Shown here piece by piece: positions 10,647 through 48,500 of a stretch of 64,000 bases of DNA (within the stretch, counting starts at the first letter, position 1; the number at the start of each line of letters is the position of its first letter). Below the pieces are notes generated by a model. That model was given only the letters and a program-made list of their open reading frames with translations. It was not told the origin of the DNA and did no database searches. The position numbers and the translations under genes are program-made. This DNA comes from Seongchinamella unica. Lineage in GTDB: Bacteria; Pseudomonadota; Gammaproteobacteria; Pseudomonadales; Halieaceae. The stretch covers positions 248,001 through 312,000 of the forward strand of contig NZ_SMSE01000002.1 of the NCBI RefSeq assembly GCF_004354085.1, given 5' to 3'.

Positions 10647-12323
10647 ATGAGCGAATCTTTCGCCGAACTATTTGAAGAAAGCCTTAAAACCGTCGACATG
10701 CAGCCCGGCGCCATTGTTACCGGCGTTGTTATCGACATCGACAGCGATTGGGTAACCGTACACGCGGGCCTCAAGTCCGAAGGTGTGATCCCCCGTTCCC
10801 AGTTCACCGACGCTAACGGTGAGTGCTCCCTGAGCATTGGCGACGAGGTACAGGTGGCTCTGGAGTCCGTGGAAGACGGATTCGGTGAAACCAAACTGTC
10901 CCGCGAGAAGGCCAAGCGTGCCGAAGCGTGGAAAGAGCTGGAAGCTGCCTACGAGGCAGAAGAAGTCGTCAAGGGTGTGATCAACGGCAAGGTCAAGGGT
11001 GGCTTTACCGTGGATATCAACACCATCCGCGCCTTCCTGCCCGGCTCGCTGGTTGACGTGCGTCCCGTTCGCGAGACCACGCACCTCGAAGGCAAGGAAC
11101 TGGAATTCAAGGTCATCAAGCTGGACCAGAAGCGCAACAACGTCGTGGTTTCACGTCGCGCTGTCATGGAAGCTGCCAACTCCGAGGAGCGCGAGGCGCT
11201 GCTGGAGACCCTGCAGGAAGGCATGTCCGTCAAGGGCATCGTCAAGAACCTGACCGACTACGGCGCGTTCGTAGACCTGGGTGGCGTAGACGGCCTGCTG
11301 CACATTACCGACATGGCCTGGAAGCGCATCAAGCATCCGTCCGAGATCGTGGAAGTTGGCCAGGAAATCGATGTCAAGATCCTCAAGTTCGACCGCGAGC
11401 GCAACCGCGTGTCCCTGGGTCTGAAGCAACTGGGTGAAGATCCCTGGGTGGAAATTACCGGTCGCTACCCCGAGGGCAGCCGCGTCAAGGCCAAGATCAC
11501 CAACCTCACCGACTACGGCTGCTTTGCCGAGCTGGAAGAGGGCGTTGAAGGTCTGGTGCACGTGTCCGAAATGGACTGGACCAACAAGAACGTACACCCC
11601 TCCAAGATCGTCCAGCTGGGCGACGAGGTGGAGGTTATGGTCCTGGACATCGACGAAGAGCGTCGGCGTATTTCCCTGGGTATCAAGCAGTGCCAGCAGA
11701 ATCCCTGGGACGCATTTGCATCGCAGTACAGCAAGGGCGACAAGATCTCTGGTTCCATCAAGTCGATCACCGACTTCGGTATTTTCATCGGCCTGGAAGG
11801 CAACATCGACGGCCTGGTGCACCTGTCAGACATCAGCTGGAATGAGACTGGCGAAGAAGCGGTTCGCAATTACAAGAAGGGCGACGAGATCGAGACAGTT
11901 ATCCTGTCCATCGACCCTGAGCGCGAGCGCATCTCCCTGGGCATCAAGCAGCTGGAAGACGATCCCTTCGGTAACTACGTGTCTGCCAACGATCGCGGCT
12001 CCATCGTTACCGGTGAAGTGATCGAAGTGGATGCCAAGGAAGTGATCATCAAGCTGGCCGACGAAGTGGAAGGCATCCTGAAGGCCTCCGACATCTCTCG
12101 CGACCGCGTGGAAGATGCTCGCAACTCCTTCAAGGTTGGTGACACCGTTGAAGCCAAGATCGTCTCCGTGGATCGCAAGAATCGCGGCGTGGTACTGTCC
12201 ATCAAGGCCAAGGACTACGACGACGAGAAGGAAGCGGTCAAGTCCCTGAAAGAGTCCGAGCAGGAATCGGCTTCTCCGGGCACTATCGGCGACCTGATCA
12301 AGGCGCAGATGGGCGACAAGTAA
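10647..12323 (+). CDS. rpsA: 30S ribosomal protein S1
   Basis: Binds mRNA upstream of the start codon and unwinds structured leaders on the 30S subunit. Six S1 (OB-fold) repeats are visible across 558 aa, for example [18 protein letters not shown] at the N-terminus and repeated [18 protein letters not shown]-type segments. Length equals that of E. coli S1. A 140-nt leader separates it from cmk; autoregulation through the leader is known for E. coli rpsA but cannot be judged here. A strong terminator follows at 12375. Confidence 0.98.
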
Positions 12324-12334
12324 GTCGTCCACCC

Positions 12335-12365
12335 CCCGGGGACAGAATTCAATTCTGCCCCCCGG
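12335..12365. repeat. Short palindrome after rpsA
   Basis: CCGGGGaCAGAATT pairs with AATTCTGcCCCCGG across a one-base centre, giving a near-perfect 14-bp stem immediately after the rpsA stop. It has no U-tract and is followed 10 bp later by the proper terminator. It may be a small mobile palindrome or a transcript-end protector; there is no way to tell here. Confidence 0.6.
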
Positions 12366-12374
12366 TTATCTCGG

Positions 12375-12403
12375 AAAGGGCTCACTTCGGTGGGCCCTTT
12401 TTT
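12375..12403 (+). terminator. Rho-independent terminator of rpsA
   Basis: AAGGGCTCAC-TTCG-GTGGGCCCTT followed by TTTT: a 10-bp stem with one wobble, a UUCG tetraloop and a U-tract, 52 nt after the rpsA stop. Confidence 0.9.
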
Positions 12404-12457
12404 GTTGCGGTTCGCTTAGCTTGATTTTGGTAGTGAAATTGCTTGCTAAGCGGGCGC

Positions 12458-12522
12458 CCCGGGCGGGGAAGACCTTGCTCGGTCGAAAAGCACACTCCCT
12501 CTCAAGGTATTCCCCGCCCGGG
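12458..12522. other. Left conserved hairpin of the palindrome
   Basis: A 20-position stem (12458-12477 with 12503-12522, one G-A mismatch) closes a 25-nt loop at 12478-12502. The loop is almost identical in the inverted copy at 12989-13055. Relative to that copy, the C12464-G12516 pair is replaced by T-A and the A12469-T12511 pair by G-C, i.e. both partners changed together, which suggests the fold itself is or was selected. Confidence 0.75.
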
Positions 12523-12988
12523 TCACCCTCCGTCCAATTCGACTCCACTATCCATTACCTATACTCCCGGTGACGTTCCAAGTCGCTGCTAAAGTGCCTG
12601 CATTTCCCGTCTTGTACACGCGGCCCTCCGGGCTACCCTCAGTCGGTCGCGAGCCAGATAAACCCTGTCTCGCTCCACTCCTTCAGCGCGCACTTGCGAC
12701 CGAAAATGCAGCCGCTTTAGCCGCTCGCCAGTGGTAAAGCTACAGGGACCGGTGTAATCGGGATCTGTGGATTGCTCGATGTGGAGGCGGGTGAGCGGCT
12801 GAATCGGCTCTCGCAAACATGGTGCCGAGAGAGTGGAGGGAGACGGCGCTTTTCCGGCTCCCGACCGACCGAGGGGACCCCGGAGGGGCGCCAATGTAAG
12901 AGAGTCGATGCAGGCACTCGTCCGGCGACCTGGAACGTCACAGGGAGTTATAGGTAGTGGATAGCGATGTCAAAGCGAAAGGAGGGCG

Positions 12989-13055
12989 CCTCGGGTGGGG
13001 GATACCTTGAGAGGGAGTGTGCTTTTCGACCGATCAAGGTATCCCCCACCCGGGG
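12989..13055. other. Right conserved hairpin of the palindrome (inverted copy)
   Basis: Inverted, diverged copy of the hairpin at 12458-12522. The stem 12989-13009 with 13035-13055 is fully paired apart from one G-T wobble. It shares 29 consecutive identical bases, covering the loop and the inner stem, with the left copy. Confidence 0.75.
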
Positions 13056-13083
13056 TGCCCGCTTAGCAAGAAAACTCACCAAT

Positions 13084-13224
13084 CGTCGACCTTCCCCCCG
13101 ATCCCGGGTCAAATACCGTTAAAATTGTGACTAAATCCACACTTTTTCTTTATAAAATAACAACTTGCGATATATCCTGTCTCGGTCCACAATTAAGCAC
13201 CGGTGAAAACAAGCCATAAGACCG
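13084..13224 (+). promoter_or_regulatory. Upstream region of ihfB
   Basis: AT-rich stretch in contrast to the GC-rich palindrome before it. A possible sigma70 promoter is TGACTA (13128-13133), 17 bp, TATAAA (13151-13156). No clear IHF consensus site was recognised, although ihfB is autoregulated in E. coli. Confidence 0.4.
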
Positions 13225-13521
13225 ATGACCAAAAGTGAATTGATAGAAACGATTGCAGCCCGGCAGAGCCAGCTGTCCGCCAAGGACGTGGAACTGGCGG
13301 TGAAAACGATCCTCGAACACATGTCCCAGTCCCTCTCCGAGGGTGAGCGCATCGAGATTCGGGGCTTTGGCAGTTTCTCCCTGCATTACCGGGAGCCCCG
13401 GCGCGGTCGCAATCCCAAGACCGGTGATGCGGTGGAACTCACCGGAAAATACGTCCCTCACTTCAAGCCGGGCAAGGAATTGCGTGAGCGTGTCAACCTG
13501 GGGCTGCAACAGGGGCTGTGA
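13225..13521 (+). CDS. ihfB: Integration host factor subunit beta
   Basis: DNA-bending histone-like protein that acts as an alpha-beta heterodimer with IhfA (encoded here at 47324). The signature [21 protein letters not shown] of the HU/IHF family is present at residues 46-66 and the beta-arm proline region is intact. Length 98 aa. A strong terminator follows 20 nt after the stop, separating it from lapA. Confidence 0.97.
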
Positions 13522-48026: not shown

Positions 48027-48103
48027 CGGGGCGTAGCGCAGTCTGGTAGCGCACCACACTGGGGGTGTGGTGGTCGTAGGTTCAAATCCTGCCGTCCCGA
48101 CCA
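48027..48103 (+). tRNA. tRNA-Pro(GGG)
   Basis: 77-nt cloverleaf with acceptor CGGGGCG, anticodon stem CCACA/TGTGG and loop CTGGGGG (anticodon GGG), T-arm GTAGGTTCAAATCCTGC and encoded CCA. Confidence 0.96.
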
Positions 48104-48218: not shown

Positions 48219-48500
48219 TTAACGGGGATGGGCATTCATCCGTACCCGACTGATAATGCCGTCCCACCCGCAGTGGGTCAGCACCCTCAACCGATAGTTC
48301 TCAAAGTTTCTAAAACCATAGGCCCTCCTGCAGATCATTTCCACCGTGTTATGGAAGCCCTCCGCGATGCCATTGCTCTTACTGAACCGCCACATGGCAA
48401 CGATGGGCTCCAGCCAGCGGGTGAGGGTCCAACAAGACACAGGCCATAGCCCTGTAGGCAGCAAGCAGCGGCGCCTGTTAGGGTCCGGGTTAATCCAGCA
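48219..48500 (-). pseudogene. ISL3-family transposase, C-terminal remnant
   Basis: On the minus strand the frame encodes LEPIVAMWRFSKSNGIAEGF followed by a HNTVEMICRRAYGFRN-type stretch and FENYRLRVLTH, the conserved C-terminal end of ISL3 transposases. No complete N-terminus is present: upstream the frame is interrupted by stops. The rest of the 528-bp stretch from tRNA-Pro to 48631 shows nothing else recognisable. It is a decayed insertion at a tRNA gene. Confidence 0.75.

Follow-up and report, generated by a model that had tools for sequence, protein, structure and literature searches.

The gap between rpsA and an ihfB-like gene of Seongchinamella unica, in the 64,000-nucleotide stretch of DNA analysed here (the window), is occupied by an imperfect palindrome, and the question is what kind of object it is and what keeps it there. 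The palindrome belongs to a multi-copy family with mobile members, built of paired modules placed at gene ends and carrying local structure that is under selection as RNA in a defined sense. On balance it is probably a dispersed non-autonomous mobile element that consists of two inward-facing structured-RNA modules and is selected as RNA. The parts of the window copy and its neighbours are as follows:

10647 to 12323, plus strand: rpsA (ribosomal protein S1), upstream neighbour; Pfam S1 2.7e-95, six stretches
12375 to 12403, plus strand: terminator-like stem-loop of rpsA with T-run, apparent insertion point; read from the sequence, 8-bp stem facing the element in the terminator test
12404 to 13115, no strand: the element, probable full extent (+/- about 15 bp), degenerate ends
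12442 to 12455, plus strand: outermost perfect inverted block, left copy (GCTAAGC...); arm comparison
12452 to 12528, minus strand (putative RNA strand, centre outward): H1 of the left half, a terminal hairpin with variable stem and conserved 25-nt loop; hairpin search and H1 search
12529 to 12579, minus strand: linker of the left half, 51 nt, with CTATCCATTACCTAT; H1-H2 distance 51
12580 to 12726, minus strand (putative RNA strand): H2 of the left half, with a variable stem below a conserved branched apex; model R1 156.9 bits, stem 22/27 Watson-Crick
12727 to 12783, no strand: central segment, separating the halves and hypervariable across the other copies; comparison of copies, no conserved promoter seen
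12784 to 12931, plus strand (putative RNA strand): H2 of the right half; R1 146.6 bits, stem 19/25 Watson-Crick
12932 to 12983, plus strand: linker of the right half, 52 nt; H1-H2 distance
12984 to 13060, plus strand: H1 of the right half; hairpin search and H1 search
13057 to 13070, minus strand: outermost perfect inverted block, right copy; arm comparison
13225 to 13521, plus strand: ihfB-like DNA-binding protein gene, downstream neighbour; Pfam Bac_DNA_binding 9.4e-32

The ihfB-like product is 88-94% identical to its counterparts in Halioglobus, Haliea and other Halieaceae. The stem-loop assigned to the rpsA terminator (12375-12403) is absent from the list of the consensus terminator scan; upstream of it, after the rpsA stop codon, comes another short hairpin (12332-12365) whose middle is rich in GAATTC, and locus L036 has a similar one. 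The element probably starts further out than 12433, behind the T-run 12398-12403. Its left extent is based on the distance from T-run to H1, which is similar in genome G007, and its right extent on a by-eye comparison with the short gap of genome G003 (L171), by which host sequence is back near 13110.

The initial annotation had described a single gapless palindrome. Two long inverted arms do exist, outer (12433-12563 / 12949-13079, 83% complementary) and inner (12563-12687 / 12824-12948, 75%), but not around one centre: the blocks 12442-12455 (14 bases) and 12479-12510 (32 bases) pair about 12756, and the blocks 12570-12580 and 12593-12603 (11 bases each) about 12755.5, which implies a one-base insertion or deletion in the palindrome. 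The single register 12755.5 gives agreement at just 158 of 328 positions, and a gapped arm-to-arm alignment reaches 74% over 653 columns. Folded as one RNA strand, 12428-13083 yields -451 kcal/mol (z = -28.7 against 20 shuffles). The local hairpin that had been noticed in each arm, now H1, is borne out on the left (12452-12477/12503-12528, 88% complementary) and on the right (12984-13010/13034-13060, 93%), as is its loop, near-identical between the arms. Both compensatory changes are likewise real when the arms are read by eye: pair 12464-12516 is C-G in the left H1 and T-A in the right, and pair 12469-12511 is A-T in the left and G-C in the right. The second local hairpin of each arm, H2, had been missed; the model match to the left H2 (12580-12726) itself runs on the plus strand, from outer to inner. 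In the window copy the halves resemble each other more than partner halves do at most other loci.

The palindrome is one copy of a dispersed repeat and not a one-off. Partial copies lie at four further places of the host genome (E<=1e-4), and a DNA search gives matches in 4 of 8 genomes of the genus. In G007 alone 38 DNA matches are spread over 18 contigs; 16 of these lie at or near the end of one, the pattern that assembly-breaking repeats should leave. Within the host family, a model built from alignment A2 of ten inner parts (R1) picks up 16 of 140 genomes and 7 of 28 genera, some of the matches being weak. Its successor R2, built from 85 matches, picks out 15 of 390 genomes in the order set, belonging to 9 of 143 genera and six families (f1, f4, f32, f40, f44, f47), and 2 of 369 genomes of the class set, namely the host genome and one weak match (E 1.4e-5). 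These family, order and class counts are lower bounds, since the order and class sets were samples, filters were strict and scoring stopped at the 8 or 22 best candidates of each genome. Half-module matches number up to at least 22 in a genome. Neither phages nor plasmids gave a DNA-level match to the element, and viral contigs gave none to one exact degenerate pattern of it. The initial annotation had allowed that other genomes might hold no further copy; the search of related genomes found them.

The anatomy of the family was read from 124 halves at 87 loci, kept out of 164 model matches in 93 sources after 40 rows that were wrong-strand, cut-off, short or weak had been dropped. From the outside to the centre a half consists of H1, a linker of about 50 nt and H2. 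All 37 two-half loci of the host family face inward, with no other order and with 29-541 nt between the cores; the remaining 50 of the 87 loci have one half each, many cut by a contig end. Of the 121 halves whose outer sequence is long enough, H1 is present in 86, for the most part at a distance of 47-59 nt from H2 (cut-off score >=13; best of one shuffle per half 11.2). Its stems differ almost completely between subfamilies and its loop core is conserved, as TCGAAAAGC..ACTC or TCGGAAGGC..GATACTC. The stems of H2 are hypervariable (117 distinct among 124), four of at least 26 pairs being fully Watson-Crick, for instance 32/32 in L170, and its apex of roughly 50-100 nt is conserved. An origin of H2 stems by copying from flanking host DNA was rejected, as 0 of 124 share a 14-mer with their own flanks.

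Outside the host family, the ten loci inspected by eye have H2 but lack H1, and in several the stem is perfect over about 30 bp. The ten multi-half loci there comprise five inward pairs and five other orders (++, -+, -+-, ++-, +-+-), tandem ones included, which counts against the favoured reading. Such tandem or mixed H2 arrays (+-+-, ++-, ++, -+, -+-) were seen at L309, L314, L315, L312 and L317, in other families of the order. Two further loci stand out: eleven tandem GGACTGCT units lie in the centre of L225 (1198-1285; G115:C6), and in L217 (G113:C33:67400-70000) an inward pair stands 541 nt apart, with repeated sequence shared by flanks and centre, as if the 3' end of the neighbouring gene had been duplicated along with the pair (the latter read by eye).

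The palindrome arises because two half-modules face inward as mirror images, and it is merely a by-product of this arrangement. Compared over their inner 22 nt, partner H2 stems of the 37 two-half loci are 0.443 identical, against 0.424 for random stems of the family, so that no upkeep of cross-arm H2 complementarity is visible; local H2 stems, which were chosen as the best hairpin, are 0.869 Watson-Crick, and local pairing exceeds cross-arm likeness in 37 of 37 loci. On these values selection for the long palindrome itself was rejected, and with it the initial suggestion that a maintained long palindrome made the locus unusual: only the local hairpins are kept.

How such modules come to be dispersed is best seen in sister genomes, where the element often starts directly behind a T-run with GGYTCWTCGCANATTAGCGGGG. 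Thirteen related elements have both ends in one stretch; they measure 176-585 bp and bear 22-bp ends resembling those of ISL3. At least seven of eight flanking bases are alike in seven of them and all eight in three (L130, L135, L139); some of these matches are cheap because the targets are T- and A-runs, those of L135 and L139 not being homopolymers. The end pattern has 55 matches in G007 and 22 in G002, and the reversed pattern has none in either. Judging from these ends and flanks, the relatives moved as non-autonomous transposons, and ISL3-type ends make a transposase of that family, acting in trans, the likely mover. ISL3 insertion sequences of G006 and G127 have ends (GGCTCTTCATCATTAACGGGGG and similar) that are built like the element ends, as judged by eye, with an 8-bp duplication at one of three copies examined. 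Coding capacity of its own was rejected for the window copy, whose longest open frames (101, 74, 61 and 60 aa) have no Pfam match at E<=0.1.

Several observations count against this picture of movement. The 13 complete elements are mostly small or deleted; none has two H2 and the longest (585 bp) has one. ISL3-like element ends occur mainly in genus g1, with traces in g10 and g23. PF01610, the ISL3 transposase domain, occurs in 11 of 25 carrier genomes, and no match to it came from G007, G034 or G113, all rich in copies. Clear terminal repeats and a target duplication are both missing from the window copy itself. ISL3 remnants exist elsewhere in the host: a transposase fragment (PF01610, E 4.7e-14) at 48282-48437 of the window, minus strand, near a tRNA (48027-48100), and further ones at G000:C4:108563-109218.

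If mobility were the whole story, the family would be a purely selfish miniature transposon whose hairpins are needed as DNA, for single-strand recognition by a transposase, with no RNA role. The transposon ends and duplications of the relatives, the many copies at which assemblies break, the placement at T-runs and the failure to find a promoter all fit this account. It is nevertheless unlikely, as it does not foresee the strand-specific excess of G.U in stems that unpaired bases lack, or a core that stays structured across genera, with matches in six families, and that does so also in copies with no visible transposon ends.

The excess of G.U emerges from the way the stems change. In alignment A4, 91.5% of cells are paired, against 39-49% when it is slid by one to three columns, and 867 cells are doubly changed against 234 in shuffles, a count inflated by relatedness. 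Covariation thus extends beyond the two pairs first noticed, the initial annotation having left room for its absence. One of five covariation measures counts against RNA selection: further pair types are not above shuffles (107 vs 107.4). The strand test used nine clusters of close copies with three or more halves each (80 of the 124 halves), took the majority base as the older one and defined the structure without G.U pairs. Single stem changes, read on the centre-outward strand, gave 62 G.U against 21 A.C, and unpaired positions of the same sequences 173 would-be G.U against 172 A.C (Fisher p = 4.6e-5 vs stems). A mutation bias should also show in the unpaired bases, and the even count there argues for selection on RNA instead. 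H2 alone gives 34:5 (p = 5e-6). H1 alone, de-duplicated and with G.U excluded from the structure, has no G.U excess (25:15, p = 0.18), again a point against; its raw count, A.C 115 vs G.T 24 before de-duplication, was not used as proof. The opposite strand folded without G.U likewise gives 62:21; with G.U allowed the ratio is 92:16 on the centre-outward strand and 65:29 with the structure taken from the other strand. Statistically, it is selection on RNA of the centre-outward strand that preserves the hairpins. The RNA sense of the window copy would accordingly be minus for the left half and plus for the right, and RNA from the left neighbour would have the required sense in the right half but not in the left.

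A mutational origin of the structure deserves attention at this point, namely hairpin-templated correction (quasi-palindrome template switching), which copies one stem arm onto the other and confers no function. The first alignment, with its many double changes and few one-sided intermediates, is what such copying would leave, and so are very long perfect stems like that of L170; part of the compensatory double changes could stem from it, which weakens them as support for selection. As a full account it is improbable, since the asymmetry of G.U over A.C on one strand and the conserved unpaired bases of apex and loop are left unexplained.

Selection on RNA presupposes a transcript. A scan of the window copy detected no promoter-like site, and the centre differs between copies within one genome; both count against the favoured reading and leave outward transcription of the halves putative. 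A promoter in linker or centre was rejected: a TTCGAC-16-TATACT-like string (outer-to-inner), spotted by eye in g1, is absent in the other genera viewed, in line with the window scan. H2 was also rejected as an intrinsic terminator. A T-run (>=6 T in 10 nt) follows it in 0 of 124 cases in the RNA sense and in 4 of 124 in the other sense, and terminator-like sites in the window region number one, vs 1.4 in shuffles. Nor is it a known Rfam RNA: no Rfam 15 family reaches its curated cut-off in the element (best MIR844, 35.1 bits vs 70) or in the other copies, and in the whole window three tRNAs alone pass.

The placement of copies suggests where such RNA could matter. Copies lie downstream of genes and in many cases beyond the terminators of these. 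Flanking genes, chosen by coding score, point toward the element in 138 cases and away in 33, and 65 loci with both sides known comprise 43 convergent, 20 co-directional and 2 divergent arrangements (counted with L301, the cut-off second match in L319 and flanks of coding score <25 left out). A terminator of the neighbour faces the element within 330 nt in 52 of 152 halves vs 205 of 2800 random places; outward-pointing terminators accompany 16 of 152 halves. In L013 (G000:C1:520285-520430) and in L122 (G007:C68) the copy lies directly behind an apparent groEL terminator (GGM-rich end), either as a shared position or as a repeated target.

Taken as a dispersed mobile element selected as RNA, the family would work as follows. 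Each element would comprise two inward-facing modules, ordered H2, linker, H1 from the centre outward. Related elements entered runs of T or A, as a rule the run belonging to the terminator of a neighbour, and left an 8-bp duplication; in the sister genomes this involved 22-bp ends of ISL3 type, and an ISL3-family transposase, supplied in trans, would probably be the mover. In RNA crossing the element, presumably read through the centre, the half that runs centre-outward would fold into H2-H1, the hairpins being maintained through selection on that strand. There H2-H1 may act as a stable 3'-end structure or a protein-binding site behind genes, mostly convergent ones, and the insertion would thereby be tolerated or useful. 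We put this role forward tentatively, as a suggestion drawn from strand sense and placement. More doubtful still is the wider proposition of a novel class of mobile element that carries, as its cargo, two RNA devices in mirror image and delivers them behind two genes at once, with free stem and fixed apex, read outward and kept by the host for 3'-end use. If true, it would mean RNA that is useful at 3' ends, for example in protecting or marking the transcripts of convergent genes.

Among known systems, REPs and REPINs are the closest in placement and as inverted hairpin pairs that may act as RNA. Two accounts describe REPs as dispersed extragenic hairpins, often in inverted pairs, downstream of or between convergent genes, and thought to act partly as RNA (PMC3116915, PMC3733652). 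The element shares with REP, BIME and REPIN sequences, as portrayed there, its extragenic inverted hairpin pairs near convergent gene ends, and Y1_Tnp occurs in 11 of 16 carriers of the host family vs 22 of 124 other genomes. Membership of this group, with spread by a RAYT (Y1) transposase, is nonetheless very improbable. R2 matches 1 of 20 Y1 loci, and weakly (L345, E 0.0066 and 0.092), and no Y1 transposase gene adjoins the element in the other 19. The typical tags are no commoner than control words at the feet of 124 H2 stems, both sides counted (GTAG/CTAC 7 and CGTC/GACG 19; controls CATC 18, CTGC 15, GCAG 11), and the ends and 8-bp duplications are of ISL3 type. A RAYT-driven REPIN was rejected on the first two of these grounds, loci and tags. 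The unit is moreover many times longer than a REP (20-40 bp) and has two different hairpins per half, with hypervariable stems and conserved apex. Elsewhere in the host, at L327 (G000:C5:83600-88000), a Y1_Tnp gene has an inverted repeat of another kind, GGGGTCAGAGTAAAAACT, no more than about 350 bp away; this repeat also occurs in L147.

MITEs with ISL3-type ends resemble the element in being non-autonomous and multi-copy, with 22-bp inverted ends (GGYTCWTCGCANATTAGCGGGG) and an 8-bp target duplication; large copies of the element differ in carrying two conserved structured RNA modules, and the window copy in having lost recognisable ends. ERIC, RUP, Correia and similar sequences are intergenic palindromic repeats of bacteria that move without genes of their own; their sizes and architecture, as generally described, differ from those of the element. 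Candidate structured RNAs of the Rfam type share its covarying stems and conserved unpaired bases, whereas here these occur as mirror pairs within a mobile element. By the ends of its relatives the element classes as a MITE, and by content as a structured RNA family that falls short of every Rfam 15 cut-off. The initial annotation was largely right in proposing structured RNAs in an inverted pair and, likewise, a fold-back element with hairpin ends: the pair recurs across genera with covarying stems, and the relatives have transposon ends and target duplications. Searches of an open-licence library, by listings and abstracts, yielded no description of the family. Two things usually kept apart, a repeat of transposon type and an RNA structure under selection, are united in the element. 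With stems that change freely, apex and loops that stay and carriers in six families, many natural variants are available, and strand-resolved data from any carrier would allow a direct test of whether dispersed palindromic repeats pay their way as RNA.

The history of the site itself can be read from the relatives. In G003 the rpsA-ihfB gap is short and empty (164 bp, no element), the comparison having been proposed with the initial annotation. In G007 a related element starts exactly behind the matching T-run (L176), complete with ends and with both H1 and no H2. Either a single insertion at this site was later reduced in different ways, or there was more than one insertion. Regulation of rpsA or ihfB, also raised initially, is scarcely credible: it could draw on the position between the two genes, behind the rpsA terminator, and on the forms found at the same place in G007 (H1 only) and in the closest relative, G005 (H2), but R2 detects H2 in this one alone of 27 relatives' ihfB loci, a DNA search of 31 ihfB loci found none with the element, and the family occupies many other intergenic places. 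The gap of G001 (L175) measures 1277 bp with no H2 match, apparently other inserted or decayed sequence. In two further relatives (L030, L035) it holds other long hairpins unrecognised by R2, and on these two loci the rpsA-ihfB gap seems to attract insertions.
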